Under the pieces are notes generated by a model. The model worked only from the letters and a program-made list of their open reading frames with translations. It ran no database searches and was not told the DNA's origin. Shown here piece by piece: positions 9,618 to 59,800 of a DNA stretch of 64,000 nt (position 1 is its first letter; every line of letters begins with the position of its first letter). The stretch comes from Rhodamnia argentea (Eukaryota > Streptophyta > Magnoliopsida > Myrtales > Myrtaceae), in contig NC_063150.1 of the NCBI RefSeq assembly GCF_020921035.1, forward strand, positions 30,551,826-30,615,825, read 5' to 3'. A program made the translations under genes and the position numbers.

Positions 9618-10167
9618 GTAAATATCATCCTGAATATACAGTTGTTGTTAGATCACTTTAGTTTTTCTTGCACTCCAAGCTGCCTTCTGTCTCATTCTTC
9701 ATCTTACCCATCGTATCTTTTAAAAATTTGCAGGGGTTAGTTGACACTATATTGCTTTACTCAAGTTTCAGTCGGTCTCAACTGATATGCATTCTTGCTT
9801 ATTCGTATCCCGTAGTCATGCCTCCTTAATGCTATGTGCTATTCTACGAATTATACTCCAATTATAGTAGCGCATAATGGAATCAGCATCCCTTTCTTTC
9901 TAACATTCAAGTTCCATGGAAGACTCAATTTAATCCTGAAGAATTACAGACGGGTTATGCCTGTTTACCTCTTTTTAATGATCAAAAGTACCATTTATAC
10001 TGGATTTAATCCTGAAGATTTACAGAAATGCTCATCCACTTCCATACATACACTTCTATGTTCTTTCATATTTCAATACACAACCCAACAAGGAAATTGG
10101 AGTTTCCATATGATGATATTTCATTATTTGTCCAATTCAATTTTTCCATCCTCAATATGTTATCTTC

Positions 10168-10943
10168 AACAACGCGAAAAAATTATCCGAAATTTTATAA
10201 ACTTATTGCACTTTTGTCAATTCAGTTGTAAATTTTTTAATTGTGCCAATCAATTCTTAAACCTTTTCACGCTCAGCCAATTGGGTGTAGCTGGCAAATT
10301 TTGGCCGAAGACCGACGTGGATGCCAGCCGTGTTGATGTGAATAATTTTTTAATTATTTTTCTAGTAATTTTTGTATTCCTTTTCTTTTCTTTTTTGACC
10401 TTTTTCCCATTTTTTTCATTTTTATCGTGGCTGGCGAGGCTAACCTCACCCACGGCCGAGGTCGGGCAAGGGGCTGACAATGCTCATTGGCCAAAACAAA
10501 AACAAAGTAGAGGGCAAAGAGAAGGAGAAAAAAAGGAACATAAAAATTAAATGATAGGGTGATGTCCAGGGTTCGCGCTTCCGGAGCAGTCAAAAGTTTT
10601 TTGACAAGCTTCAGACTAGTATCCAAGCCCGATCCTTCTTTAACGAATCTGTCAAAACCTTGCCTCTTTCCTCCTGCCGAATCATCGGAGACATATAATC
10701 CCACTATTGCAAAGGGTTGGGTTGTCGCATAAGTCCCACCAAGAACTCAAACTGTCCCTTATAATTAAAAATTGTGCATGTCAACACCGCAACCATGCAA
10801 CATACAACAATCCGCATCCATATCAATAATTTCCAATCAAAATTGATTGGATACAATTAATCGGCAAAATATAAAAATATTTGGTACTCAACTGGTACAA
10901 CTAAAATAGTTTATAGCTGAATTGGTAAAAGTGTATTAATCTT
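10168..10943. repeat. Family-1 TIR element, copy A1
   Basis: The left arm (TATTGCACTTTTGTCAATTC) and the right arm (AATTGGTAAAAGTGTATTAA) are inverted copies, as in the better-preserved copies at 28255 and 35312. The centre holds GC-rich sequence (CGAGGTCGGGCAAGG). No gene is seen. The right end is shortened compared with copy B1. Confidence 0.6.
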
Positions 10944-13706: not shown

Positions 13707-13783
13707 CATCTTCTCAAGAAAATCAACTTCTTTTAAAAAAGTACACTAGAAAAATCAAGTTCAGTTAGCTTTTGAGATTTGCG

Positions 13784-13791
13784 TATAAGAG
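13784..13791 (+). promoter_or_regulatory. TATA-like box of TPR mini-gene A
   Basis: TATAAGAG lies about 130 bp before the ATG at 13922 and is followed by a CT-rich leader. The same box and the following GCCTGGTTTTGCG occur in an intron of the decayed ankyrin gene at 8201-8224, so this promoter-like sequence seems to be recycled intron DNA. Function is inferred. Confidence 0.35.
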
Positions 13792-13821
13792 TGGAAGCCT
13801 GGTTTTGCGGACCTTGAGTCT

Positions 13822-13843
13822 CCTCTCTCTCTCTCTCTCTCTT
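13822..13843. repeat. (CT)n microsatellite
   Basis: A perfect CT run in the putative leader of mini-gene A, shorter in mini-gene B (about 20325-20338). Such CT tracts are common in plant 5' UTRs. Confidence 0.85.
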
Positions 13844-13921
13844 TCCGTCTGTCCTTCACTCGCTCCCGCCTGCCAGCTCTCGACGCGGCTCGCCACTTTG
13901 CCTCTCTTCCCTCGCAGCCCG

Positions 13922-15758
13922 ATGATTTCTGGACTATTCGGTATGCAGGTATTGATGTCCCTGACGTGTTATGGCTTTTTCCTGCCTCCTCTTGCTCCAT
14001 GTGAATGTGGTAGAACATTACCAAATTTAGATGGATTTTCTAATCTTTATTTTGCTAGATGATTCAGACAGTTTTTCTGATTGTGATGTTATTGCCTAGT
14101 GCCTAAGAGCTTTCATGATAAGATTGCCTGATGGGATGAAGGCAGAGGTTTTCTATATCTGGGGTCTCAAATCTTGTGAGCAATGGTTGTCGATTGTGGG
14201 TAATTTTCGATGAGATACAGCAGCCGGTCTTGTGAAGGAAAACTACATTGCAGTGACCCTTATTACGAGATGGTGAAAAGCCTCTTTTTGTATGTAAATC
14301 TTATGACTGCAATAAGGACATGAACTTGGCTGAAGGGAGTCTTCCCGTGGCAATTATTCTTGGTGTAATTCTCTTTTATTTGATATAAAATTGGAATATT
14401 TGTGCGTCATGTATTGTGTTCGAGCTCAAAAGTTAAATTTACAGGAAGACGTTGGGGAAGCAGAGGAAACAAGGAAGGAGAAGGATAACTTTTCTCAGGA
14501 AAGTGGAGAAGCTAAATGGAAAGCTGAAAAAGCCAAATTAAGAGGAGATGCTGCGCTTAAAAGAGCACGCTATGCTGCAGCTTTATCCGCCTATACACAA
14601 GTAAATTCTTCTATCATCATCAGTTGTTCTGGACATTTTTCATGATTAACTTCTCTTTGCCAATGAAGATATCAGGCCTTGTCATGGAAAACCTCTCCAA
14701 TAACACCTGACTTAAAGAAACCAACTATATTGAACTACTCGTCTGGTTCGGAAATTACAGGCAAGGGGCTTTGACCCAAATGACCCAACTTTGCTTTCCA
14801 AAAGAAGTCTCTGCTTTATTCAGTTGGGGGAAGCAAAACATGCTCTAATTGATGCAAGGGACTGTATAGCACTTAGACCAGATTGGTCAAAAGCTTGGTA
14901 TAGGGAGGGTGCAGCTCTGCATTTACTGCAGGTACGCTTTCGCTAATTATTATCCTTTTAGTCTATTAACAGTGTTTGCACATTTTTTTACTATACATGG
15001 CGGTGAAATTTCTGGCAGAGGTTTGAGGAAGCTGCCATTTCTTTCTACGAGGGTGTGAAGCTTGAGCCTGAAAATGAGGAGCTTGTACACGCTTTCAGGT
15101 TAGGCTGAATCAATTTCTCCAACCTTGGAGTAACCTTCTGCTCTGTCCTAGTTGCGAATTTAATTAGAATAACGGCATGATGTCGACGGTGGTCCCATGG
15201 AATCTATATGCCCAATACTGTCGGTGCTAGATTATGTGCAATAAGGAGAGGCTACAGAACAGGAGAGAAGAAGGAATGTACATATCAAATGTGCCTGATT
15301 AATGATGCAGAATGGGGAATAGGAATTAAGCTAACCAGCTGCTTTTGGTAAAATGGCGAAAGCATTGAACAGTGGTCAAAGTTGATTGCGATTCTGTAGT
15401 GTTATGCTCGTCGATTGAGAAGATTTCATGCTCATTATGCATAGGTATCATTTTCCAAGGGCAAAGTCATAGCTAGTCTTTGGTCGAAAGATTTGTTAAG
15501 CAAATGCTAAATTCTGCTGCTCGCTCTTCCGTCAGAGCACATAGAATCTTTTGTCTCAATTCAATGGCTATGTTAGCAAGTGGAAACATTGGAACACCAC
15601 AGCATCTAACGACTTATGCTTCTATAATAAACTGTTGAGCACTCAACTTCTAGAGACTAAATGAATCATGTCATGCATGCAATTTAAAGTTGGGCCTATT
15701 TATTCTTTCTCATCTTCACAGGGAAGCATTTGAAGCTGCAAGGAAGTTCCGCCAGTAA
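13922..15758 (+). CDS. Short TPR protein without ankyrin repeats, copy A
   Basis: Proposed exons: 13922-13948 (MISGLFGMQ), 14445-14600, 14761-14931, 15019-15098 and 15722-15758, giving about 156 residues. Acceptors and GT donors are canonical and every phase agrees (27, 156, 171 and 80+37 bases). The body is a TPR block equivalent to the C-terminal third of TPR10-type proteins: AKLRGDAALKRARY, FDPNDPTLLSKRSLC, RPDWSKAWYREGAAL, ending EAARKFRQ then stop. The first exon is the tail of a lost ankyrin exon (the ...YMQ in 1484-1618) with a new in-frame ATG. The conserved clamp Asn of SNRS is Lys here. It could be a neo-gene or simply the surviving 3' half of a broken locus; open frames and intact splice sites favour some constraint. 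Transcription is not shown by sequence. Confidence 0.55.
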
Positions 15759-16511: not shown

Positions 16512-17611
16512 TAGAGCCGGCAAAATGGGTCATGTACCCATTTTGTAACCCAGTTTTAAGAGGCCCAACGCTATATGGGTAACTCGTATTTTTATAAAAT
16601 GGGCCAAAGTGGATTAAGAAGAAAATGAAAACCTAAAAAACAGGTCAAATATGGGTTTGCTTCTGACCCATATTTGACCCATTTAGCCCAACAAAACAGG
16701 TGAGTCTCTTCATCTCTCTCTCTTTCATCTCTCACGATCGTCCCTCTCTCTTCTCAGTCTGCTCGCTCGTCATGACCATATCTACCGTAGCAAAACCCTA
16801 ACGCCACTCTTTCCACCGTGCCCACATTCGCCCCATCGTCCGCACGATTAACCTCGACCTCCCCATCGAGGATCCCGAGATGAAGATCTTCGCTTCTAGA
16901 GCCGAAGGCGGCGGCCTCATGGTCGATCAACACTCTGCATTATCAAACCACCAGAAGATGGCGGTCGATCCGCCATCGCAGCACTCCAGCCTCTAATCTG
17001 TACTAAATTGTACGCTACTACAAGTGGTAACCTCGGGCACTTGTCGCGGCTCCTCCTTTCGCAGGGCTGCATGAAGATCTGCGTGCTCCGATGGATGAAC
17101 AATGAGATGGTGAGGCGGGTCAAGAGCTGGGAAGCGGATGACTCGGCGTGAGGGACACGGGCACTAGCCACTAAGCACAGGCTTGAGTTCTGCTACTAGC
17201 CATCTTTGAAGAGCTTCTATTTGAACTGGAAGTACAACAAGCTAGGTGTCAAGGGACGAGTTGCAGACGAAGGAGGGCGGAGGGAAAAGGAGAAAATAAA
17301 TAAATAAATAAAAGAAAAAATTAAAATATCTTTAAAAAATTAAAAATTTACTAAATTTGTATTTCATAAAAGTGTTTAGCAATATTATTTTTTTTATCAA
17401 ATTATTAGAACAAGTATTATATTATTTAGTTAAATATAGAAATGTTTAAGAAAAAGGGTTGGGTATAGGTCGGTAATGGGCCGGGTCGGATAAGGGTAAT
17501 TAAATTTGTACTATGTAAAAATGGGTCAAAATGGGTTTAATGGATCAATATGGGTCGGACCATATTCGACCCAACTCAAACCCCACCCGATCCACCCGTT
17601 TGACACATCTA
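16512..17611. mobile_element. Non-autonomous hAT-like element
   Basis: An 1100-bp insertion is flanked by the perfect 8-bp duplication GTTATGCC (16504-16511 and 17612-17619). Its ends are TAGAGCCGGCAAA and the reverse complement TAGATGTGTCAAA, typical of hAT termini. Unit A shows the unfilled site (GTTATGCC once, at about 9954), so it inserted after the tandem duplication. It contains no transposase. Its centre (about 16690-17290) is GC-rich with short readable stretches such as EDPEMKIFASRAEGGGL, so it may have captured host exon sequence that I cannot identify. Confidence 0.85.
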
Positions 17612-17831
17612 GTTATGCCTGTTTACCTCTTTTTAATGATCAAAAGTACCATTTATCTTGGATTTAATACTGAAGATTTACAGAAATGCTCATCCACTTC
17701 CATACATACACTTCTATGTTCTTTCATATTTCAATACACAACCCAACAAGGAAATTGGAGTTTCCATATGATGATATTTCATTATTTGTCCAATTCAATT
17801 TTTCCATTCTCAATATGTTATCTTCAACAAC

Positions 17832-18613
17832 GTGAAAAAATTATCATAAATTTTATAAACCTATTGCACTTTTGTCAATTCGGTTGTAAATTTTTTAATT
17901 GTGCCAATCAATTCTTAAACCTTTTCCCACTCAGCCAGTTGGGTGTAGCTAGCAAATTTTGGCCGAAGACCGACGTGGATGCCGGCCATGTCGATGTAAA
18001 TAATTTTTGAATTATTTTTCTAGTAATTTTTGTATTCCTTTTCTTTTCTTTTTTTACCTTTTTTTTTTTTCATTTTTAGTGTGGCCGGCGAGGCTAACCT
18101 CACCCGTGGCCGAGGTCGGGCAAGGGGCCGACAATGCTCATTGGCCAAAACAAAAACAAAGTAGAGGGCAAAGAGAAGGAAAAAAAAAGGAACATAAAAA
18201 ATAAATGAAAGAGTGATGTCAAGGGCTCGCGCTTCCGGAGCAATCAAAAGCTTTTTGACAAGCTTCAGACTAGTATCCAAGCCTGATCCTTCTTTAACGG
18301 ATCTGTCAAAACCTTGCCTCTTTCCTCCTGCCAAATCATCGGAGACATAATCCCATTATTGCAAAGGGTTGGGTTGTCGCATAAGTCCCACCAAGAACTC
18401 AAAATGTCCCTTATAATTAAAAATTATGCACGTCGGCACCGCAACCATGCAACATACAACAGTCCGCATCCATATTAATAATTTCCAATCAAAATTGATT
18501 GGATACACTTAATCGGCAAAATATAAAAATATTTAGTACTCAACTAGTACAACTAAAAGGTTTCATAGCTGAATTGGTAAAAGTATATTAGTTTTAAGGT
18601 ATTTTTTTTCCCA
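17832..18613. repeat. Family-1 TIR element, copy B1
   Basis: Duplicate of A1 in unit B, with a longer right arm that ends in the TTTTTTTTCCC expected for the family. Confidence 0.55.
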
Positions 18614-19903: not shown

Positions 19904-20287
19904 GCGACCAATTTAACAAAGGAACAACTTTTTATGGGTCATTTCATTTCACTACTAAAACAGGTTGTGTGAGACAATTTGGTGCTTATCTATTTTTTAT
20001 TTTAATTTTTGGCAGGTGTCTTCTCCAGTTTGATTTCTTCTTTTGGCATTTTGATTTTGTCTTTTGCTGGGCACCCATGACAACACTTCTTGGAGTAAAA
20101 TTTTTGCTCTAAAAGTACTTCTATAGCAGAAATTCGTTTGGTAGCATAATTTTATTTTTCTACTTCCAAAGCATTTTCTTTTTTTTCTGTTGGAGAAGTC
20201 ATTTGGAGCCATCTTCGGAAGTAGATCTTCTCAAGAAAATCAACTTATACTAGAAAAATCAAGTTCAGTTAGCTTTTGAGATTTGTG

Positions 20288-20295
20288 TATAAGAG
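20288..20295 (+). promoter_or_regulatory. TATA-like box of TPR mini-gene B
   Basis: TATAAGAG at the place equivalent to 13784-13791, upstream of the ATG at 20414. Function inferred only. Confidence 0.35.
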
Positions 20296-20413
20296 TGGAA
20301 GCCTGGTTTTGCGGACCTTGAGTCTCCTCTCTCTCTTTCCGTCTGTCTTTCCCTCGCTCGCCTGCCGGCTCTGGACGCCGCTCGCCACTTCTCCTCTCTT
20401 CCCTCACAGCCCG

Positions 20414-22251
20414 ATGACGATTTCTGGACTACTCGGTATGCAGGTATTGATGTCCCTGCCGTGTTATGGCTTTTTCCTGCCTCCTCTTGCTCCATGCGAA
20501 TGTGGTAGAACATTACCAAATTTAGGTGGATTTTCTAGTCTTTATTTTGCTCGATGATTCAGACGGTTTTTCTGATTGTGATGTTATTGCCTAGTGCCTA
20601 AGAGCTTTCATGATAAGATTGCCCGATGGGATGAAGGCAGAGGTTTTCTGTGTCTGGGGTCTCAAATCTTGAGAGCAATGGTTGTCGATTGAGGGTAATT
20701 TTCGTTGAGATACGGCAGGGGACTTGTGAAGGAAAACTACATTGCAATGACTCTTATTACGAGATGGTGAAAGGCCTCTTTTTGTATGTAAATCTTATGA
20801 ATGCAATAAAGACATGAACTTGGCTGAAGGGAGTATTCCCGTGGCAATTATTCTTGGTGTAATTCTCTTTTATTTTTATTTGATATAAAATTGGAATATT
20901 TGTGCGTCTTGTATTGTGTTCGAGCTCAAAAGTTAAATTTACAGGAAGACGTTGGGGAAACAGAGGAAACAAGGAAGGAGAAGTATGACTTTTCTCAGGA
21001 AAGTGGAGAAGCTAAACGCTATGCTGCAAAAGCCAAATTAAGAGGAGATGCTGCGCTTAAAAGAAATCGCTATGTTGCAGCTTTATACGCCTATTTAGAA
21101 GTAAATTCTTCTGTCATCAGTTATTCTAGACATTTTTCATGATTAACTTTTCTTTTGCCTTTCTTTGCCAATGAAGATGGAAAATCTCGCCAATAACACC
21201 TGACTTAAAGAAACCGACTATATTGAACTACTCGTCTGGTTCGGAAATTACAGGCAAGCAGCTTTGACCCAAATGACCCAACTTTGCTTTCCCAAAGAAG
21301 TCTCTGCTTTATTCACTTGGGGGAAGCAGATCATGCTCTAATTGATGCAAGGGACTGTATAGCACTTAGACCAGATTGGTCAAAAGCTTGGTATAGGGAG
21401 GGTGCAGCTCTGCATTTACTACAGGTACGCTTTCGCTAATTATTATCCTTTTAGTCTATTAACAGTGTTTGCACATTTTTTTACTATACGTGGGAGTGAA
21501 ATTTCTGGCAGAGGTTTGAGGAAGCTGCCATTTCTTTCTACGAGGGTGTGAAGCTTGAGCCTGAAAATGAGGAGCTTGTACACGCTTTCAGGTTAGGCTG
21601 AATCAATTTCTCCAACCTTGGAGTAACCTTCTGCTCTGTCCTAGTTGCGAATTTAATTAGAATAACGGCATGATGTCGACGGTGGTCCCATGGAATCTAT
21701 ATGCCCAATACTGTCGGCGCTAGATTATGTGCAATAAGGAGCGGCTACAGAACAGGAGAGAAGAAGGAATGTACATATCAAATGTGCCTGATTAATGATG
21801 CAGAATGGGGAATGGGAATTAAGCTAACCAGCTGCTTTTGGTAAAATGGCGAAAGCATTGAACAGTGGTCAAAGTTGATTGCGATTCTGTAGTGTTATGC
21901 TCGTCGATTGAGAAGATTTCATGCTCATTAAGCATAGGTATCATTTTCCAAGGGCAAAGTCATAGCTAGTCTTTGGTCGAAAGATTTGTTAAGCAAATGC
22001 TAAATTCTGCTGCTCGCTCTTCCGTCAGAGCACATAGAATCTTTTGTCTCAATTCAATGGCTATGTTAGCAAATGGAAATATTGGAACACCACAGCATCT
22101 AACGACTTATGCTTTTATAATTAACTGTTGAGCACTCAACTTCTAGAGACTAATTGAATCATGTCATGCATGCAATTTAAAGTTGGGCCTATTTATTCTT
22201 TCTTATCTTCACAGGGAAGCATTTGAAGCAGCAAGGAAGTTCCGCCAGTAA
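20414..22251 (+). CDS. Short TPR protein without ankyrin repeats, copy B
   Basis: Same layout as copy A: 20414-20443 (MTISGLLGMQ), 20945-21100, 21254-21424, 21512-21591 and 22215-22251, all in phase, about 157 residues. Key TPR signatures are AKLRGDAALKRNRY, FDPNDPTLLSQRSLC and RPDWSKAWYREGAAL; the clamp Asn is Gln. Compared with A, exon two differs at 16 of 156 bases and exon three at 6 of 171, all changing amino acids, and the last exon has one silent change, while the fourth exon is identical. The first exon gains one whole codon, which keeps the frame. The pattern suggests that coding sequence has been under diversifying selection, or was patched from another paralogue. Expression is unproven. 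Confidence 0.55.
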
Positions 22252-23478: not shown

Positions 23479-24075
23479 ATGAAGCCGCCGGCGGTTCCCA
23501 ACTACGGCACCACGACCGCCGCCGCTGCCCCCGCCGTCGCAAGACCGGCCGCCGCGCTCTTCTACACGTCGCGGCCCACCACCCCCTTCCCGGCCCGCCG
23601 CCCCTGGCGGGAATTCCTCGACGTCTCCTCCTTCTCCCTCCCCTACAGCCTCACCGACGCCGCCTCCCGGGTCGCCAAGAACCTCGGCCACTTCCGCCTG
23701 AACTACGCGATCGTGGCGCTCTTCGCCCTCTTCCTTGGCCTCCTGTGGCACCCGATTTCACTGATCGTCTTCACCGTCGCCCTCTTCGCTTGGTACGGCC
23801 TCTACTTCTCCGTCGACCGACCCCTGGTGGTCTTCGGCCGCAGCTTGGACGACAGGGTCGTGCTCGCGGGGCTGAGCTTGGTGACCGCAATTGCGTTGGT
23901 TGTGACTGGTGTGGGGTTGAATGTGTTGATCTCGTTGGCGATTGGCGTGTTTGTGATTGGATTGCATGCTGGGTTCAGGAATTCGGAGGATTTGTATGTG
24001 GATGAAGAAGAGGGCGGGCTCTTCTCAGTTGTTGGCAACCAACCCTTGAGACCCACTTCTTATAATCGGATGTGA
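23479..24075 (+). CDS. PRA1: PRA1-family membrane protein (prenylated Rab acceptor)
   Basis: A single-exon gene of 198 residues, usual for plant PRA1 proteins, which sit in endomembranes and bind prenylated Rab GTPases during vesicle traffic. The start is the ATG at 23479 in CACGATGAAGCCG. The N-terminus (1-40) is Pro/Ala-rich and cytosolic; [15 protein letters not shown] at 41-55 is the family signature before the PRA1 domain. Four hydrophobic segments lie near 75-90, 92-110, 128-145 and 147-164, with [13 protein letters not shown] between the second and third. The acidic tail has [10 protein letters not shown]. It most resembles the PRA1.B group. The first half of the gene is very GC-rich and the second half is not, a gradient common in plant intronless genes. 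It converges on prefoldin subunit 4. Confidence 0.92.
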
Positions 24076-29929: not shown

Positions 29930-31381
29930 TTAACAAGTGACAATCTTAGAGTTCACAAAAAGATGGCCCCGAGCGTTGACATTTCCGTCCTTGTCCAACC
30001 TGCGAAACGTGCCGGCGGCATCCACATCCAACCCTCCGTTGCTACACTGGTCAGTGGCTCAATGATCCTCACCGTCGCCTGAGCTCCGGTCCTCGTGCTG
30101 GTCACCTGCACATGCCAAAGGCGCGGACCCTCACATAACAAGCCTGTTAAACATGGTTCTGTAGGCTATTAAGTCTAGAAAAAAGCTTATCTGGCCGCCG
30201 TACCAAGTCAGACGGTGAGACAGTCAACTAAGGACCATAAATCAAGTTTGTTGAAACCGGATCACTTGTTGATCCCGGTTTCATCATTTTGATTGCCCAT
30301 TTTTTTATGTGTTTTTATTGTAAGTTAAAATTAGAAAAGAAAGTATACAAGGTAATTACGATTTTTTTTTTTTTTTGAGTTATTAAAAATTGAAAAAAGC
30401 TAAAACGATAGCCCGTGAGAGTGATGGAACCACGTGAACCACGTATTCGCGTGATGTGCTTTTCGGTTGAAAGTCTACGTCTGACATCTGCGCACCACAT
30501 ATCCGCGAGATATGAAGTCTGACTTGTACGCACCACATATTCGCGTGATATGCTTGTTAGCCAAAAATTCACGTCTGAGATGTACATTTCAATTTGCACC
30601 ATTGATCGACGGTACTGTCATTCAAGCAAAGTCCTTAAGAATTTTTTTTGTAATTGTAGGAGCAATATCCACCGTAATCTTTTCATTTTGCCGGAGAATA
30701 ATATCTACTATTTTACAAGTTGCAATTTATTATTTGAATATTATCTGTTGGATATATTTAATTAGAATTTTGATTGTGTCAGCTCTCTTATAATTTTGTC
30801 TTCTAATTTTCGCTTACAAAAAGAACACATAAAGGTATGAAAAAAAAGAATTGAGCAGTCAAAATGTCGAAACCGGATTAGCAAGTTACTCGGTTTCAAC
30901 AAATTTGATTTGTGATCCTTAGATGATCGGCCCACCATCTGATTTAGTGGGATGGTCATCTTAGCCGGACCCTTAAGCTTATATAAACATATGGATCATA
31001 GACTAAGAAGTCGTACATGTGCATATGGTCACACTATCCTCATGCATCTCCAAGGGCTTCTTGGTTCTTACCCTTAAGCACCACCCGCAAGAGGACTGCC
31101 AGCGAGACCCGGCCGGGCCACAGAAGGAGGTCCAACCGTACCTCCTGCACCACTTGAGGGGCTAACTCGCGTCCCAGACAGAGCAATAGGCACGGGGCCG
31201 CGTTCGAGTCCCACCGGATCCGCTTGGGGTTGTAGTAATTGTATGTCGCCCTGGAGTTCGAAAGCGCTCTGAGCAAGTGCGGCGGCCACGACAGAAACCA
31301 GAACGGCCATGAAAAGGCTACTAAGCGTTCGCAATTTCGTAATGCCTTTGATGGGGTTTCTTGTGCAAAGATTGTGCTCAC
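29930..31381 (-). pseudogene. PR4: PR-4/barwin gene copy, decayed
   Basis: Minus-strand remains of a two-exon PR-4 gene. Exon-one remains (about 31074-31381) show a signal peptide (MAVLVSVVAAALAQSA) and the mature start (ATYNYYNPKRIRWDSNAA), but these are in different frames. Exon two (29930-30105) begins [14 protein letters not shown] after a proper CAG acceptor. It is broken by a few frame disruptions and cannot make the whole domain. The intron is enlarged by a TIR element at 30181-30978. Family role where intact: secreted, disulfide-bonded defence protein reported to bind chitin or degrade RNA. Confidence 0.75.
30181..30978. repeat. TIR element in the intron of the decayed PR-4 copy
   Basis: The left arm (AAAGCTTATCTGGCC... 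AATCAAGTTTGTTGAAACC) and the right arm, read in complement (AAGCTTAAGGGTCCGG... AATCAAATTTGTTGAAACC), are inverted copies over about 120 bp. The interior has three copies of a 21-base near-palindrome at 30438-30458, 30494-30514 and 30532-30552. No coding content. Confidence 0.65.
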
Positions 31382-32690
31382 AAGAGGGGGAGGAGGAGTG
31401 TTGACTCATAGGGGGTGTTGACTCATAGGGGAAACTACCAACTAGCCCAGCGACAAGGAACAAATTAAAGAATCTGGAAACTCAGTTGTGTAATGTCCAT
31501 CATTTTGGTACTTACATTGCTTAAATGTGTCAATGTCAGCACCACCAGCCTAATGATCCCTTATAACGCTTTGCAAAAATGAAAGGACGAAAATTACTTT
31601 CATCATTTACGAAAATATTTTGATATAAGTTTTTATCGATGAAGACATCTTTCATTAACGAATTATTTTAAACGATACATATGATCAAATTTAGAAAAAT
31701 ATTTTTCAAATCTCACTCATTCTCCACGAAATAAGCGGAGCCTAAAGCTCAGCTCAAACTTATTGTGCTGCTGCAATGCTGAGCTATGAAAAGTTGGCCC
31801 TGGTCAACAACTATAGCATGTTCCACAACATAGACCGACGTTGACATTTTCTTATCGACGAGCGCTCGCTTTCTATCATGTGTATGCTATCCAACAGAAG
31901 CCTCAGTCCACTTGTTAACAAGATCCTGATATGCTACACATCATAAGAAAAATAATTGTCATGTGAAAGTCGTTCTCGTTTATTTTTCAGAACATATTAA
32001 TCAAGATTCAGCAAGAAGGTTTAGGACTGAATTGGCTAAATTGAAATGTAATAAACGACTAGATGATCAAACAAAAGGATTGAATATTTAAAAGTGTCAA
32101 TCAACCAGTCATCGAGCAACTAACTGAGAAAATTGTTGGAGTTGCAAAAATCATGGAAACCATTATCAACGTTCTCTCAATTACTCTATGTATCTTCGAC
32201 TTTTGAACCTATATTACACTCTTTAGTCTCGACATTTGGTATTTTGCACCGTCTATTTGAAGAACACCTTAATTTATTGCTGATCACCTTTTCTCTATTT
32301 CTTACACTTGAAGTACATGTTTAGAAAACCCTATACTGTAAGATGTATAGTATTAGGGTGCAGGCTGCAAAGTATGTAAGAAAACTAAAGAAGAATTCTT
32401 ATATTTCTGTGAAACTGTAACTTTTACGAAAGATTCTTTTGAGATCAATTCCACTCTTCGACAAATGAGTTGCAGCATCTATTCCAATGGAAGCTTTCGC
32501 TTGTTTTGTCCAAGGAACACACGACAACATGAACAAAACTGTTGGTCTCGCTAAACGAGAGCCGCCATTTGGAACTTCGTATTGGGTCATTGCCATTAAC
32601 ACAGAGGAACACGATAACAAGGCAAAAAGAGATTAAAGAAGAGATTAGGAATAAGTTTTGCTGATTAATAAAAAGAAAATGCTTACTGTT
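31382..32690. other. Inter-gene DNA of the PR-4 cluster
   Basis: Bases about 31530-31930 are homologous to about 36820-37080 (shared CAATGTCAGCACCAC, and AGCTATGAAAA against AGCTACGAAAA), showing that a larger unit than the gene was duplicated. A 73-residue minus-strand frame at 32399-32620 matches no family I know. Confidence 0.45.
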
Positions 32691-47400: not shown

Positions 47401-47979
47401 TTAACAGCTCACGAACACGTAGTTAACCGTAATATAGCCCGCATGATATCCTTCCTTCGTCGTGTCCAGCATCCGGAAAACCTGGGCGTCCAGTTTCAGC
47501 CCTCCACTGCTACAGGTGTCGACGATCCTCACCGTCGCTTTAGCTCCTGTTTTCGCATTTGTCACCTGCGTATGATATAGAACACGATGAACGATCGTAG
47601 TTCAAAGAGGAACTTCCATTTGGCATGAGGGTCTATGAACGGACTAAGCAACTAGAAAAAGGGGGAAAGGGGGGAAAGGGGGGGGGAGATTGTTTCTCAC
47701 GTTCAAGCATTTTCCGCAAGCCGCTTGCCCGGTCGGCCCGGCCGGGCCGCAGAACCCGGTCCAACCCCACTTCTTGAGCCACTCCTTCGACTGGCTCGCG
47801 TACCACGGCGCGCAGTAGGCGTGCGCGGCGTTCAGGTCCCAGTTGTTCTCCACGGGGTTGTAGTAATGGTACCTCGCCTTGACGTTGGAGGCGCTCTGCG
47901 CACTAGAGACTCCGACAACGCATGCCAAAACCACCGAGAAGAGCCTCAGCCTCAGCCTCAACTTTTGATCACCCTCCAT
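47401..47979 (-). CDS. PR4: PR-4 (barwin-domain) secreted defence protein
   Basis: The only intact member of the cluster. Two exons, 47701-47979 and 47401-47565, encode 147 residues. The start is the ATG at 47977-47979 (MEGDQK); a signal peptide ends at about residue 27 ([12 protein letters not shown]), so the mature protein begins like class II PR-4. The barwin domain shows [40 protein letters not shown], then [28 protein letters not shown] and VNYVFVSC: all six cysteines for three disulfides are present. There is no hevein chitin-binding domain. The intron is short and contains a G-rich tract (RC of C-run). Family members are induced by pathogens and salicylate or jasmonate, and show RNase or antifungal action; none of that is visible here. 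Confidence 0.92.
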
Positions 47980-48032
47980 TTCTCGCACTTTGATAACTTC
48001 TGTGAGATTTCGCGAGGAGGGTGGTGCAGATC

Positions 48033-48038
48033 TATATA
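48033..48038 (-). promoter_or_regulatory. TATA box of PR-4
   Basis: CCTATATAGA on the minus strand, about 54-60 bases before the ATG, is a standard plant TATA position for a short 5' UTR. Confidence 0.65.
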
Positions 48039-48044
48039 GGAGAG

Positions 48045-48899
48045 GGATGAGAAGTGGAAGATCGCCGGATTGCCCTCGTGGTCCCGGAACGTTTTAGGGC
48101 CACTCAACGTGGGGTACCTTTTGAATAGTGATGGAGACCACCTTGGTTTCTTTCTGTTAGGGTTTTACACCGCTTTATTAAAAGGAAATAGCTCAGGACT
48201 CTTTACTTTCCCAGGACACGACGTTCGGACATGGCTATAAGGAAGGCAGGGACACGTGCTCGAGTAGTGGGCACGATTCATTGGATCGGACGGCGGTTCG
48301 TGTCGATCCTTCATTTTGCATTACGTGGCTCAGTTGATCTTCGAGCACGGATGTCTCGAACGTAGTAGTGGAAGGATGTGGGAAGCTATCAATTAGGGAG
48401 GAAGCGATTATTTCTTTGAATTATCCACCTTACGCAAGCAATGATATGGCGAGGTGGAGAAGTCAAAAGAAGATGTGTAGAGTTTCGTCACGCCTGTCTT
48501 CGACTCTTCAGGGAAAGGAATGCACACGAGGTAGGAAATATATTAACACATCAAGCGACATTCTCGTTGAAAATAATCATTCCCATCTGCATGACCCTAT
48601 TAGAAGTTAAAGCCTGCCCCACCTTCCAAGACATTTGCATGAAATCTTAGTTAGCGACCAACTTAGGTGGGCGTTGATTGTAGCATCAATGTAATTAAGT
48701 TCCGGACCCATTTATCTGATTTTCGCGGAATTGAACGAAATCTCTCAACTGCTCAATGGGATTCCCAATTACATGTTACCCAACCACACGGTCGACCCCA
48801 TTTTAAAGTTCCTTCCCGTCATGATTTGGGTATGGGCCTTGGATGGCCCACGTCAAAAATCCTTCCATTGAGAGTTGGACGACAACAATCCATCAGCCT
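48045..48899. other. PR-4 promoter region and spacer
   Basis: Upstream sequence of the intact PR-4 gene. I see no reliable further cis-element and no gene. Confidence 0.35.
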
Positions 48900-52979: not shown

Positions 52980-55900
52980 GACCGATCAATTAACCAATCA
53001 TAATCGTTCTTCTTCGTGTCTTTGTTGTCCTCCTGGTCGTCTTCATCGCCAAGCTCTTCCTACTGACTCTGCACTTCATCTTCGTCCTCGCCACCATCCT
53101 GTTGCTCACCATGGTCTCCTGCAAGTCGCCGTGCTCGTTGCCGTCGTCTGGCTGAGGAGAGGGAGGCAAGACTTACGCAAGTTGGGACAAAACGAAGGAA
53201 ATCTGGTTTGCGGAGACAAAAGATCAATTTTTGTGAGGATCGAGCACCGGTATGTTAGGTAATGGCTAAGTAGCACCAATATCGACACCCGACATGCCAT
53301 GATGTGATGTAATATGCCAATAAGTTATTTTAAAAAAAAATAAAGAATTTCGACATATTGAGACATGTTGTGTATCCAATATTTATTTTTATATGCGCAT
53401 AGTAAATTTTGATTTTTATGATTATTTAAAACAAAAGAATCTTTAGAGTCCTACAATCGCATGAACACTTAGGAGATTATATTTGACAAACAGAAAAGAG
53501 ATTATTGAACTAACAGTAGAGCATTGCGATAACAGCTCCATACCAGACCAGAGATTGCTTCGTTGCATTCAAAACGCCATGTCACTTCAACTTCCCCTTC
53601 CCAAGAGCCTTTGCAGCTTCCAGCAAACACCCATCATCTCATCTCCCTCGTTTCCCTTCGCCGACAGAAAACCAAATTCCCAGAACGGAAAAACATCCTT
53701 AAAAGTCACCTCCTTTTACGAACCTTTGAAGCTGCTGAGAGGAAGCCACCAGGAGAAGTTGCTGAAAAGAAACGATGCGAAGAATGGTGAATCCCTATGC
53801 TCTCCCTCCTCTTCTTCGACCACCATCTGGTAATCTCAGTCTCTCTCCTCCTGTCTTTGCATCGGCTCTTCTTCTTCTGCTTCTTCCTCGGAATGTCGAT
53901 TCTTCTCTCTCCCGTCACTTTCGCGCTTCACCCTCCGCTTCTGAACTGAGCGATTCCATGAATCGCTCCCAAGTTTTGGAATATGTGATGAAGCGATGCA
54001 AAAATTGTGGTTTCGCAAGAGCCGGCGATGCTTTGCATTATTTCAAGGTTATGATTCGGCTGAACCCTTTGCCTTCACCTCCCTGTTTCGTCCAACTCTT
54101 GGGAGCTGCAGCGAGGATGAAGCATTATGCTGCCACCATCCACATGATCGAGCGAATGGATTCCATGGGGATATCTCGCAACGCTTGCGTTCTCAACATT
54201 CTGATAAATTGCCTCTGCCATTTGAAAAGGTCTGATCTTGGATTTTCCGTTTTGACCAAAATGTTCAAGCTTGGGCTTGAACCGGATGTGGTGACATTGA
54301 CCACTTTGCTCAACGGGCTCTGTGAAGAGGATAAAACCTCGCAAGCCTTGACCTTGGTGGAAGAAATGCAGGGCAAAGAATTTATGGCCAACGTATTTAC
54401 GTATTGCGTCATTGTGAAGGGATTGTGTAGAGCAGGTAATACTTCGAACGCCGTCCGGTTAATAAGGAATTTAGAGGAAAGGGGTTGCGAGCTAAATGTG
54501 GTCACGTATACCACTATGATCGATGGTTATTGCAAGGAAGGACTGGTGGCGGAGGCATTGGGCTTCTTTAACTGTATGAGTCACCGAGGAATTCAGCCAA
54601 ATATCTTCACTTACACTACCTTGGTACATGGCTTATCCTGCATAGGCGAATGGAAACAAGCAAAGGCCTTGTTAGAGAAAATGATTGATGATGGAATCCA
54701 CCCAAATGTTTTCACTTATAATTCCTTCTTCCTTGGTCTTTGCCGTTGTGGCCAGTGGGAAGAGGCTCGAGTCCTGTTGAGCGAGATGTTGCGGGGAGGA
54801 ACAAAGCCAGATAATCGAACCTTCAGTATTGTCTTGGATGCACTCTGCAAACAGGGCATGACTGATGAGGCGAGGTGCATATTTGATTCGCTGATTGAGA
54901 TGGATATTGAGCTGAATGTAGTTACTTATAGCTCATTGATCAATGGCTACTGCCTTCAAAATCGAATGGATGATGCTGCGACTATATTTTGTTTGATGAC
55001 TGCAAGGAAATGCGACCCTGATGTCGTCACCTATAGCACATTGATTAATGGGTATTTTGGGGTTAAAAGAGTCGATAAGGCAATGAATCTCCTTCGGGAA
55101 ATGTTGGAGAAGGGATTAGTCCCTGACGTTGCCACCTATCATTGTCTCATGGATGGTTTTTTCCTTGCTGGAAACCCCAGGGTTGCACATCAGCTGTTTT
55201 ACAAAATGTTGGCTTGCAATCATATAAATCGACGAACTTATGCCATCATGTTAGAAGGCCTTTGCAAATATCAGCAAGTCGACAAGGCAATGGCATTCTT
55301 TCAACAAATGAAAAATGGCATGGGCAATGTTAATATCATCCACTGCAACATCCTTATTAATGGCTTGTGTGAGGCGGGGGAACTTGAACCTGCAAGGAAC
55401 CTTTTCAATTCATTGGATGCCAAAGGGTTGCGACCTGATATCGTGACATTTATTGCAATGATAAAAGGACTTTGTAAAGCTGGCCAAATACGTGAAGCTT
55501 GCGAGCTACTTGATAATATGAACGAGAAGGGATGCTCTCCTAATGATTTAGTGTATACTATTATTGTACTAGCACTGCTTGAAGATGGTCAGAAAGCGAG
55601 GGCAATGCTTACCCTAGGGGAGATGATTGAGAAAGGCTTCTCACCAAATGCTGCATCCACAGCTAAAATGTTGAGCGCATCAGCTAACAATACATCATAA
55701 TCCCGAAATTCTGCATAAACTTTTGTGTGTGCATGTAGGAAGTAGCCAACCTTTTATCTCGATGAAAGAAGATTGGGCTTGCATCATCAAATGCCAGTTA
55801 CTTCAGTATATTTTCAGATTAGTTTGTTACAAGGAAGAAAACATGGCGATGTACAGAAAATAAAGTGAAATGGATGACCTTCTGCTACGTCAGCCATACC

Positions 55901-56640
55901 AAGGTATCCCCTCCCTTACTGAGTCTTCGTGAAAATCGTTGTCCCGATGCTATAGTCTGTCGCATGAAAATGAAAGATTGAGGAAACTCGGTTGGTTGAA
56001 ATTTAAGGGGCTGCTAGAGAATAGTTTCTTAATGTTAGCCTAGAGATTGTGTTCTGTCTTAAAAACTATAGTCAAACTGAGAGATTAATGTCTTACAACC
56101 TAGACATGATCATTACTGGATATGAGAAGGAAGTGAGATTTTATTGGACTCGTTATCTGGAATTACAAGTACTCGTTCAGTTTCTTCCTTTCCCGTTCCC
56201 TTTTCTCTTTTCAACTTTGCTTTTCTCAAATGATGAAGTACCATTGAAGTTTCTGGCTCGAGGTCAGGCACTCATGTGATTTTGTGTTGTCTTTTGAAAT
56301 CTACAAATTCCAAAGCTTGAAATGCGGCGTTGAAGGTTATGACTTGATTTGATTCTGCGTAATTCTAAGACTCAAGTTAGGTAGTAATGTGATTGATGAG
56401 AGAAAAAAGGCGGCGGCGGCTAGTCCTAATAACCATGTTGTGCCTCATCTTAGATCCATGGGAGCACAACCTGCTTGCTACATGATGTCGATTACGTTGA
56501 TTAGTGTTGAAGTCTCTCGCCCAGGTAACGAGGGAATTCCATGTATCGACAGTATGTGGAGACAATTAAGACAGAGCATCACCTGGTTTCTTAAGCACAA
56601 AGATGGGACTGTGCTTTCTCAACATTGATTGAAATGTATC
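52980..56640. repeat. PPR tandem duplication, first unit
   Basis: The unit (about 3.9-kb period) includes upstream DNA (TCGTCTTCATC tract at 53037), the PPR gene and about 900 bp of 3' flank. All of it recurs at about 56880-60555. Confidence 0.8.
53775..55700 (+). CDS. P-class PPR protein, restorer-of-fertility-like, copy 1
   Basis: An intact intronless 641-residue gene; ATG at 53775 (MRRMVNPYAL). Residues 1-55 are Arg/Ser-rich and hydrophobic without acids near the start, fitting mitochondrial import. From about 102 to 625 there are some 15 consecutive PPR motifs, nearly all exactly 35 residues, such as VVTYTTMIDGYCKEGLVAEA from 242. ALHYFKVMIRLNPLP with LLGAAARMKHYAATI, and LNILINCLCHLKRSDLGFSVL, are hallmarks of the restorer-of-fertility-like (RFL) clade, whose members bind specific mitochondrial RNAs and direct their cleavage or stability. 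No E/DYW or SMR domain is present. Positions 5 and 35 of each motif (for example T246/N276, N316/D346, S351/N381, S386/D416, S421/D451) predict the RNA bases contacted. The RNA target is unknown. Confidence 0.93.
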   Translation: MRRMVNPYALPPLLRPPSGNLSLSPPVFASALLLLLLPRNVDSSLSRHFRASPSASELSDSMNRSQVLEYVMKRCKNCGFARAGDALHYFKVMIRLNPLPSPPCFVQLLGAAARMKHYAATIHMIERMDSMGISRNACVLNILINCLCHLKRSDLGFSVLTKMFKLGLEPDVVTLTTLLNGLCEEDKTSQALTLVEEMQGKEFMANVFTYCVIVKGLCRAGNTSNAVRLIRNLEERGCELNVVTYTTMIDGYCKEGLVAEALGFFNCMSHRGIQPNIFTYTTLVHGLSCIGEWKQAKALLEKMIDDGIHPNVFTYNSFFLGLCRCGQWEEARVLLSEMLRGGTKPDNRTFSIVLDALCKQGMTDEARCIFDSLIEMDIELNVVTYSSLINGYCLQNRMDDAATIFCLMTARKCDPDVVTYSTLINGYFGVKRVDKAMNLLREMLEKGLVPDVATYHCLMDGFFLAGNPRVAHQLFYKMLACNHINRRTYAIMLEGLCKYQQVDKAMAFFQQMKNGMGNVNIIHCNILINGLCEAGELEPARNLFNSLDAKGLRPDIVTFIAMIKGLCKAGQIREACELLDNMNEKGCSPNDLVYTIIVLALLEDGQKARAMLTLGEMIEKGFSPNAASTAKMLSASANNTS

Positions 56641-56879
56641 TATGTAGTAAGCAAGAAGATAGCTTGGTGATTTGGCTCGGTCTCAAAATTTCTGAAACCA
56701 AATATATAGGGCGCTATTATGTTGGGGTGTGGAGCTTCTGAACCATTTTAAAAAATGACACTTCACAATCTGAACCAAAATCGTTTTTTGGTTCGATTCA
56801 ATCTGACGGTTTGAACTTTGTGGTGCTCACCCCTACCAAGAAGTGTTCTTTTGCTCATTTTAAAGGTGTCCGACATTAG
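56641..56879. other. hAT-like remnant between the PPR units
   Basis: About 56660-56835 ends in GTGGTGCTCACCCCTACC, complementary to a TAGGGGTGAGCA-type hAT end, and resembles 60715-61090. No transposase. Confidence 0.35.
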
Positions 56880-59800
56880 CAAACTACAAATCGGTGTTGC
56901 CCTCCTTGTCGTCTTCATCAACATTCTCTTCCTGTTGACCCTACACTCCATCTTCCTCCTCCTCGTCATCGTATTCATGGCCACGATCTCCTGCGCGTCG
57001 TCGTCGTTGTCAACATCATCTTGTGGAGGAGAGGGAGGCTCGAAAATATCATATCCAAGGTGGACTGAACATCTTGAAGTAGAAAACGTCAGAAAATCCC
57101 GAGTATCACATGAGACTAATCTACAATTTGAACACCAAATGCAAGCACCTAGCAAGAAACCAACACGAAGGATTTCCCTCACACTTAATCACCTTAGAAT
57201 TGAGCAGCATTCACAAATTAGAACAGAGCAACTCTTTAACCTTTGATCTAGAGACAAAGTAGGACTTTTTTAAAGAATCAAGTACCGGTATTATAGTTGT
57301 CTCGGAATTGTAGCTTGCCTAACTAGCCCTTAACAAATATGGTAACCAAATTTATAAGCTTTAAGATTTGATTACAATTTTCTTATAAAAAAAAATTGGG
57401 ACGTAACTGCACTATCTCCCTAAGATCCAGGACTTCCTGTTGCACTTATGGAATCAGATGTGTGGCATAAACAGAAACCTTGAGACCATTGAAATAACAA
57501 CACAGTATCGCAGCAACAGCACCAGCCCAGAGATGCTTTGTTGCATTCAAAAACACCATGTCCCATTGCAGATTCCAGCAAATACCCATCGTCCTCCTCC
57601 TCCTCCGCTTCGATTCTTTCAACTTTCTCCCCATTGCAGATTCCAACAAATACCCATCACCGAGATGTTGCTGAAAAGAAATCATGCGAAGAATGGTGAA
57701 TCCCTCTGCTCTTCCTCCTCTTCTTCGATCACCATCTGGTATTCTCACTCACTCTCCTCCTGTCTTTGCATCGGCTCTTCTTCTTCTTCTTCTTCCTCGC
57801 AATGTCGATTCTTCTCTCTCCCGTCACTTTCGTGCTTCACCCTCCACTTCTGGACTGAGCGATTCCACGAATCGCTCCCAAGTTTTGGAATATGTGATGA
57901 AACTATGCAAAAATGGCGGATTGGCAAAAGCCGACGATGCTTTGCATTATTTCAAGGTCATGATTCGGCTGAACCCTTTGCCTTCACCTCCCTGTTTCGT
58001 CCAACTCTTGGGAGCTGCAGCGAGGATGAAGCATTATGCTGCCACCATCCACATGATCGAGCGAATGGATTCCATGGGGATATCTCGCAACGCTTACGTT
58101 CTCAACATTCTGATAAATTGCCTCTGCCATTTGAAAAGGTCTGATCTTGGATTTTCAGTTTTGACCAAAATGTTCAAGCTTGGGCTTGAACCGGATGTGG
58201 TGACATTGACCACTTTGCTCAACGGGCTCTGTGAAGAGGACAAAACCTCGCAAGCCTTGACCTTGGTGGAAGAAATGCAGGGCAAAGAATTTATGGCCAA
58301 CGTATTTACGTATTGCGTCATCGTGAAGGGATTGTGCGGATCTGGTAATACTTCGAAAGCTGTCTGGTTAGTAAGGAATTTGGAAGAAAGGGGTTGCGAG
58401 CTAAATGTGGTCACGTACAACACGATCATCAATGGTTATTGCAAGGAAGGACTGATGGTGGAGGCATTTGGCTTCTTTGACTGTATGATTCACCAGGGAA
58501 TTCAGCCAGATATCTTCGCTTACACTACCTTGGTACATGGCTTATCCTGCATAGGCGAATGGAAACAAGCAAAGGCCTTGTTAGAGAAAATGATTGATGA
58601 TGGAATCCACCCAAATGTTTTCACTTATAATTCCTTCTTCCTTGGTCTGTGCCGTTGTAGCCAGTGGGAAGAGGCTCGAGTCTTGTTGAGCGAGATGTTG
58701 CGGGGAGGAACAAAGCCAAATAATCAAACCTGCAATATTATCTTGGATGCACTCTGCAAACAGGGCATGACTGATGAGGCGAGGTGCATATTTGATTCGC
58801 TGATCGAGATGGATATTGAGCTGAATGTAGTTACTTATAACTCATTGATCAATGGCTACTGCCTTCAAAATCGAATGGATGATGCTGCAACTATATTTTG
58901 TTTGATGACTGCAAGGAAATGCAATCCTAATGTCGTCACCTATAACACATTGATTAATGGGTATTTTGGGGTTAAAAGAGTCGATAAGGCAATGAATCTC
59001 CTTCGGGAAATGTTGGAGAAGGGATTAGTTCCTGACGTTGCCACCTATCATTGTCTCATGGATGGTTTTTTCCTTGCTGGAAACCCCAGGGTTGCACATC
59101 GGCTGTTTTACAAAATGCTGGCTTGCAATCATATAAATCAACAAACTTATGCCATCATGTTAGAAGGCCTTTGCAAATATCAGCAAGTCGACAAGGCAAT
59201 GGCATTCTTTCAACAAATGAAAAATGGCATGGGCAATGTTAATATCATCCACTGCAACATCCTTATTAATGGCTTGTGTGAGGCAGGGGAACTTGAACCT
59301 GCAAGGAACCTTTTCAATTCATTGGATGCCAAAGGGTTGCGACCTGATATCGTGACATTTATTGCAATGATAAAAGGACTTTGTAAAGCTGGCCAAATAC
59401 GTGAAGGTTGCGAGCTACTTGATAATATGAACGAGAAGGGATGCTCTCCTAATGATTTAGTGTATACTATTATTGTACTAGCACTGCTTGAAGATGGTCA
59501 GAAAGCGAGGGCAATGCTTACCCTAGGGGAGATGATTGGGAAAGGCTTCTCACCAAATGCCGCATCCACAGCCAAAATGTTGAGCGCGTCAGCTAACAAT
59601 GCATCATAATCCCGAAATTCTGCATAAACTTTCGTGTGTGCATGTAGGAAGTAGCCAACCTTTTATCTCGATGAAAGAAGGTTGGGCTTGCATCATCAAA
59701 TGCCAGTTACTTCAGTATATTTTCAGATTAGTTTGTTACGAGGAAGAAAACATGGCGGTGTACAGAAAATAAAGTGCAATGGATGACCTTCTGCTACGTC

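Follow-up and report, generated by a model that had tools for sequence, protein, structure and literature searches.

The 64,000-nucleotide stretch of Rhodamnia argentea contig NC_063150.1 analysed here, referred to throughout as the window, contains two intact genes for P-class pentatricopeptide repeat (PPR) proteins lying in tandem on the forward strand, with starts 3909 nt apart. These are probably a restorer-of-fertility-like (RFL) pair arising from an older duplication that has since been partly homogenised, in which the code of the middle motifs has diverged, so that the two proteins would read different RNAs. The two open reading frames (ORFs), termed copy 1 and copy 2 in the order in which they occur, align without gaps and differ at 76 of 1926 nt and 46 of 641 residues, with silent changes in 26 further codons. 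RFL genes are clustered, fast-evolving members of the P class, with diversifying selection on the residues that contact RNA (PMC7380019, PMC5075784, PMC5138203).

The motifs of both proteins start at residues 102, 137, 172, 207, 242, 277, 312, 347, 382, 417, 452, 486, 521, 556 and 591, fourteen of them being 35 residues long and one 34, and Pfam PPR_2 matches were found in 13 stretches. No DYW domain was present among the Pfam matches of the PPR proteins (E-value up to 0.001), and the pair has the tandem 35-residue helical motifs, without PLS triplets or a C-terminal editing domain, by which the P class is recognised. Residues 206-461 align without gaps to the designer protein dPPR-U8A2, which gives the same motif register, and in an AlphaFold2 model of copy 1, calculated from a two-sequence alignment (mean pLDDT 68.7, pTM 0.43), a helix begins at each of the 15 motif starts. 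The top seven structures retrieved with this model by Foldseek were six designer-PPR chains, five of them with RNA or single-stranded DNA bound, and unbound PPR10. Across the top 20, however, the TM-scores were modest (0.27-0.57 of the query) and the root mean square deviations large (5.8 to 24 Å), hence the model supports the repeat register rather than a precise superhelix.

A first-pass annotation, made from the sequence alone, had counted 32 replacements downstream of residue 136, seven of which were placed at position 5 or 35 of PPR motifs against about two expected by chance. The full gap-free alignment of the pair bears out this excess: 32 differences lie within the array (residues 138-619), rising to 33 at the C terminus, as residue 640 also differs, and seven of the 32 (residues 246, 276, 346, 351, 386, 416 and 421) occupy position 5 or 35, which together account for 30 of the 524 array sites (expected 1.83; hypergeometric P = 0.0012). 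The span originally marked begins at codon 246 of copy 1 and ends at codon 451 of copy 2, and the genes themselves extend further. When positions 2, 5 and 35 are taken together they hold 10 of the 32 differences (expected 2.75, P = 0.00013), and a null weighted for codon mutability gives P = 0.0016-0.0032 for positions 5 and 35 and 0.00005-0.0002 for all three. The excess is also seen among N, S, T and D residues only, with 7 of 25 changed at positions 5 and 35 versus 6 of 80 at other array sites when counted from copy 1 (P = 0.012), and 7 of 25 versus 5 of 79 from copy 2 (P = 0.007). The most frequently altered motif positions are 5 (four differences), 2 (three, in motifs 2, 8 and 12, at residues 138, 348 and 487) and 35 (three). 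Diversification of barley RFLs is concentrated at positions 5 and 35, and is also found at 2, 7, 8 and 29 (PMC7380019); in the present pair these six positions, 90 of the 524 sites, contain 13 of the 32 differences (P = 0.001), a pattern carried by positions 5, 35 and 2.

Bases were predicted using the PPR code pairs given in PMC8144145. The predicted base is altered in five of the six motifs between residues 242 and 451 (motifs 5 and 7-10), motif 6 being T+N in both copies; each altered motif passes from one recognised code pair to another, and all seven code-site changes swap N with S, T or D. The first-pass prediction of A-A-U-A-G-G for these six motifs of copy 1 stands, whilst U-A-C-C-C-U for copy 2 is better written U-A-Y-Y-Y-U, since N+N reads C in preference to U (C>U). 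The flanking motifs had been said to keep their specificity, and indeed the remaining nine (1-4 and 11-15) are identical at positions 5 and 35. The predicted footprints are therefore 5'-..UA.AAUAGG..U.A for copy 1 and 5'-..UA.UAYYYU..U.A for copy 2. Counting only those footprint letters that have a listed code, an estimated 0.8 and 6.1 exact matches respectively would occur by chance on the two strands of an assumed 400 kb mitochondrial genome; hence the PPR code alone would not pinpoint the target.

The six motifs had been read as a single recoding, but the data divide them into two parts. Residues 219-280 form a divergent island with 16 differences, of which two are at position 5 or 35 (P = 0.16, no significant excess), whereas five of the 10 differences across residues 326-430 are at these positions (P = 1.5e-5, for a region picked after seeing the data). 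Residues 102-218, 281-325 and 431-625 contain 1, 0 and 5 differences, none at position 5 or 35. The island is diverged at silent sites too, its dS being about three times the 0.056 of the whole array, while residues 326-430 are not (dS 0.059). There is consequently nothing in the two code changes of motif 5 that has to be specially accounted for, in contrast to those of motifs 7-10. Replacement and silent changes stand at 10:0 at positions 2, 5 and 35 and at 22:19 elsewhere in the array (one-sided P = 0.005), where the other residues are constrained (dN/dS 0.33). Within residues 242-451, a block chosen by the finding itself, sites at positions 5 and 35 have seven changes versus 2.0 expected under neutrality, around 3.5 times the synonymous rate (P = 0.005), and the equivalent post hoc test of positions 2, 5 and 35 gives P = 0.009. 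The code sites of this pair consequently change much more freely than other sites, which suggests, but does not prove, positive selection upon them.

The sequences around the genes point to a more complex history than a recent duplication. In the shared 3' flank, 14 of 399 sites differ in the part near the genes (3.5%) and 82 of 439 in the far part (19%; P = 7e-13), while the upstream 150-nt bins over 53501-53800, the last 26 nt of which are coding, are only 77.5% and 71.3% identical, with large gaps. This suggests that the duplication is older than the coding sequences imply and that the copies were later partly homogenised in and around them, presumably through gene conversion or unequal exchange. 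Recombination is described as a major driver of rice RFL clusters (PMC5075784). Constraint on the 3' untranslated region could explain part of the flank gradient.

A relative that would polarise the changes was absent from the 11 pattern matches in viral contigs and the 24 in genome contigs. Two records matched in a plasmid collection, one a Legionella plasmid (23% identity over 43%) and the other CP036489.1, labelled as a Rahnella plasmid, which has PPR matches at several places. An intact PPR protein encoded by the latter is collinear with copy 1, being 36% identical over 557 alignment columns in register and 27-28% identical out of register. The insert of this record is probably from Brassicaceae, judging from synteny with Arabidopsis, and the protein would be an RFL on the grounds of its clustering and the same synteny. 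The second PPR copy on the record is split across two frames, and the two pieces, p1 and p2, were compared separately with the intact copy. Together they differ from it at 67 residues, 14 of which occupy position 5 or 35, where 3.64 would be expected from the 32 such sites among 589 (P = 1.5e-6); p1 contributes 9 of 40 (P = 5.8e-5) and p2 5 of 27 (P = 0.009). The code-site excess is thus found again in another, only distantly related pair, as would be expected from the literature. Set against the neutral rate, p1 gives P = 0.049 for positions 5 and 35 and 0.14 for 2, 5 and 35, and p2 gives 0.69 and 0.90, with six changes at positions 5 and 35 versus 6.9 expected, hence the step from code-site excess to positive selection is weak in this pair also. 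Those elements of the first-pass recoding proposal that find support are the code-site excess, the P-class array in register and the collinear similarity to this apparent Brassicaceae RFL-cluster protein.

The record itself has some unusual features. CP036489.1 (1-49310) was deposited as Rahnella aquatilis plasmid pMEM40-2, and has an F-type repE/sopA replicon, the chloramphenicol marker cat and one perfect loxP site (23922-23955), with plant-like PPR genes found beside frames annotated as TIR and DUF3458. A 6.5 kb vector-like stretch is at least 80% covered by at least five records including CP036489.1 itself, at least three of them being E. coli records, 7.6-8.9 kb in size. It is probably a mislabelled or contaminating plant bacterial artificial chromosome clone, the plant DNA of which is probably from Brassicaceae. 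The entire vector-like stretch is 99.8% identical to NZ_CP104070.1:10819-17358, labelled Alicyclobacillus fastidiosus, which is possibly a cloned construct or contamination too.

A number of results weigh against a recoded, partly homogenised RFL pair. Circular shifts that keep the clustering of the differences reach the observed value in 11 of 524 cases for positions 5 and 35 (approximately 0.02) and in 7 of 524 for positions 2, 5 and 35, so the significance of the excess is only modest; position 2 taken alone gives P = 0.057, and positions 7, 8 and 29 carry only two, zero and one differences, with no signal of their own. The comparison is of two sequences only and hence has no polarity, and polarising with the CP036489.1 protein failed, as it matches copy 1 at 8 of the 32 differences and copy 2 at 6. 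Across the array, pN at positions 5 and 35 is 0.092 and pS 0.054, with seven changes versus 4.1 under neutrality (P = 0.12), and positions 2, 5 and 35 have 10 changes versus 5.9 (P = 0.077); significant above-neutral values (P = 0.005-0.009) come only from stretches chosen post hoc. Within the coding sequence, no identical run exceeds the length expected by chance (P = 0.20 for the longest), hence the case for conversion rests on the flank gradient and the regional differences in dS. Finally, the purine-reading pairs are mixed, with one SN, two SD and four TN in copy 1 and zero, zero and three respectively in copy 2.

As code-site change across the whole array does not significantly exceed the neutral rate, there is room for relaxed constraint, whereby redundancy following duplication would allow code positions, which have little role in folding, to drift without selection for a new target; the behaviour of p2, at or below the neutral expectation, is in keeping with this. 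We nevertheless regard it as rather unlikely, given that both ORFs are intact, that the other array residues remain constrained, that code sites within residues 242-451 exceed the synonymous rate, albeit in a block defined post hoc, and that all five altered motifs move between recognised code pairs. A bias in mutation could in principle have produced the same S/N and D/N changes, which would then coincide with code sites by chance: across residues 326-430 (54750-55064 versus 58659-58973) there are ten differences with G in copy 1 and A in copy 2 and none in reverse, and the whole coding sequence has 22 versus 12 in the same direction. Even given such a bias, however, the six of ten that fall at positions 2, 5 and 35 far exceed the chance expectation (8 of the 89 G available, P = 9e-6), as they do with the polarity reversed (14 of 92 A, P = 6e-4), and the 3' flank does not share the bias (12 versus 15), making this a highly improbable and disfavoured explanation.

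It is possible, though on balance doubtful, that the changes arrived as short tracts converted from an unseen third paralogue of the RFL type rather than as single point mutations, a scenario compatible with a recoded RFL pair. The differences are clustered (219-279, 346-353 and 414-421), position 35 of one motif and position 5 of the next are only 15 nt apart, such that one short tract would alter both, and the elevated dS of the island and the recombination reported for rice RFLs (PMC5075784) would both fit. Yet no exact match of at least 14 nt spanning a variant base turned up in the rest of the two coding sequences, a tblastn search (E-value up to 1e-3) found no third PPR copy in the window, and residues 346-421 have only 3 of 12 nucleotide differences at third codon positions, a smaller number than a diverged donor paralogue would be expected to introduce with a tract. 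The genes might alternatively be P-class PPRs outside the RFL clade, unrelated to fertility restorers. RFLs, on average over many proteins, have SN and SD as their commonest purine-reading pairs and rarely have NS or NT; SN and SD are not the commonest such pairs in either copy, which would fit a non-RFL origin, whereas the complete absence of NS and NT from both copies, and the motif-by-motif collinearity with the apparent Brassicaceae cluster protein in register, would not. The tandem arrangement and motif number likewise argue for RFLs, to which 15 to 20 PPR motifs per protein are ascribed (PMC5075784): each copy has 15, and the two close paralogues are clustered, being the only two found within the 64 kb. 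We therefore consider an origin outside the clade decidedly unlikely.

For the favoured interpretation, an RFL pair with diverged middle motifs, we infer diversifying selection, a mitochondrial role, distinct targets and membership of the RFL clade. Duplication would have been followed by partial homogenisation in and around the coding sequence, by gene conversion or unequal exchange, with divergence of the base-reading residues of motifs 5 and 7-10, such that the two proteins would read different RNA stretches in the middle of the footprint and the rest of the footprint would be common to both. Each would be imported into mitochondria, as are known RFL and Rf proteins, and would bind a specific transcript, one motif per base, which would then be cleaved or have its translation blocked. 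The first 40 residues contain four K or R and no D or E in copy 1 and copy 2 alike, a composition compatible with mitochondrial import. If two RNAs are read, the pair is a compact natural experiment, in which a single scaffold carries 32 differences within the array, seven at code sites, and with which the number of code changes that an RFL protein needs to move to a different mitochondrial transcript could be tested directly. Changes of this kind are already on record for RFL genes, hence the pair would add a further clean case and not a new idea. A more elaborate arrangement, in which conversion keeps the scaffolds alike while selection holds the five middle motifs apart, maintaining purine- and pyrimidine-reading restorer versions for two coexisting mitochondrial transcripts, seems to us improbable.

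Table 1. Features of the PPR gene pair in window coordinates.
Feature	Position	Copy 2 position	Strand	Description
Copy 1	53775..55700		+	single-ORF P-class PPR gene, intact, 641 aa, 15 motifs
Copy 2	57684..59609		+	single-ORF P-class PPR gene, intact, 641 aa, 15 motifs
PPR array, copy 1	54078..55649		+	residues 102-625; designer-PPR alignment, predicted helices starting at same 15 residues
PPR array, copy 2	57987..59558		+	register same as copy 1
Divergent island	54429..54614	58338-58523	+	residues 219-280; 23/186 nt different, dS 0.185
Motifs 5-10, copy 1	54498..55127		+	residues 242-451; predicted A-A-U-A-G-G
Motifs 5-10, copy 2	58407..59036		+	residues 242-451; predicted U-A-Y-Y-Y-U
Codon 246	54510..54512	58419-58421	+	motif 5 position 5; T in copy 1, N in copy 2
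Codon 276	54600..54602	58509-58511	+	motif 5 position 35; N in copy 1, D in copy 2
Codon 346	54810..54812	58719-58721	+	motif 7 position 35; D in copy 1, N in copy 2
Codon 351	54825..54827	58734-58736	+	motif 8 position 5; S in copy 1, N in copy 2
Codon 386	54930..54932	58839-58841	+	motif 9 position 5; S in copy 1, N in copy 2
Codon 416	55020..55022	58929-58931	+	motif 9 position 35; D in copy 1, N in copy 2
Codon 421	55035..55037	58944-58946	+	motif 10 position 5; S in copy 1, N in copy 2
Shared 3' flank	55701..56643	counterpart ends 60571		2-5 differences/100 nt beside stop codon, 10-31 further out

Besides the PPR genes, the window has reading frames with matches to PRA1, barwin, prefoldin and ankyrin domains, a combination that points to the nuclear DNA of a flowering plant; scans of the window for tRNAs and Rfam families (gathering threshold) returned no matches. 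The barwin-domain frame, of the PR-4 type, is at 47647-48093 on the reverse strand, and is resembled, by eye, by a frame at 31040-31405 on the same strand, which is overlapped by another at 31077-31481 without a Pfam match. Closely similar frames were also noted by eye from the ORF list as the pairs 9816-10550 and 17519-18010, and 13769-14645 and 20273-21142; the members of each pair are separated by approximately 6.5 to 7.7 kb, and the left part of the window may therefore contain a further duplication.

The tandem genes can be compared with several characterised systems. Designer PPRs bound to RNA (PDB 5i9d, 5i9f, 5i9g and 5i9h) share the 35-residue register of the pair across the aligned part, but are synthetic consensus repeats and not natural restorers. 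In Brassica napus, nine code combinations differ between RFN and rfn and are proposed to alter the recognised RNA, much as in the present pair; these are alleles at a mapped restorer locus with stated mitochondrial targeting (PMC5853434), whereas targeting of the pair is putative. Between radish Rfo and rfo (ORF687), which act on orf138, two motifs have a changed position 5 (ND to TD and TN to NN) and the predicted bases change with it, again as in the pair (PMC8144145); there the alleles are linked to a fertility phenotype by crosses, while the genes described here are tandem paralogues known from sequence, with five motifs (5 and 7-10) affected. A further parallel is with the RFL clusters of barley (PMC7380019) and rice (PMC5075784). 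Only two copies are in view here and no difference of kind was found: like the pair, these clusters consist of tandem intact P-class genes with 15 motifs and signs of exchange, the differences between which are gathered at positions 5, 35 and 2.

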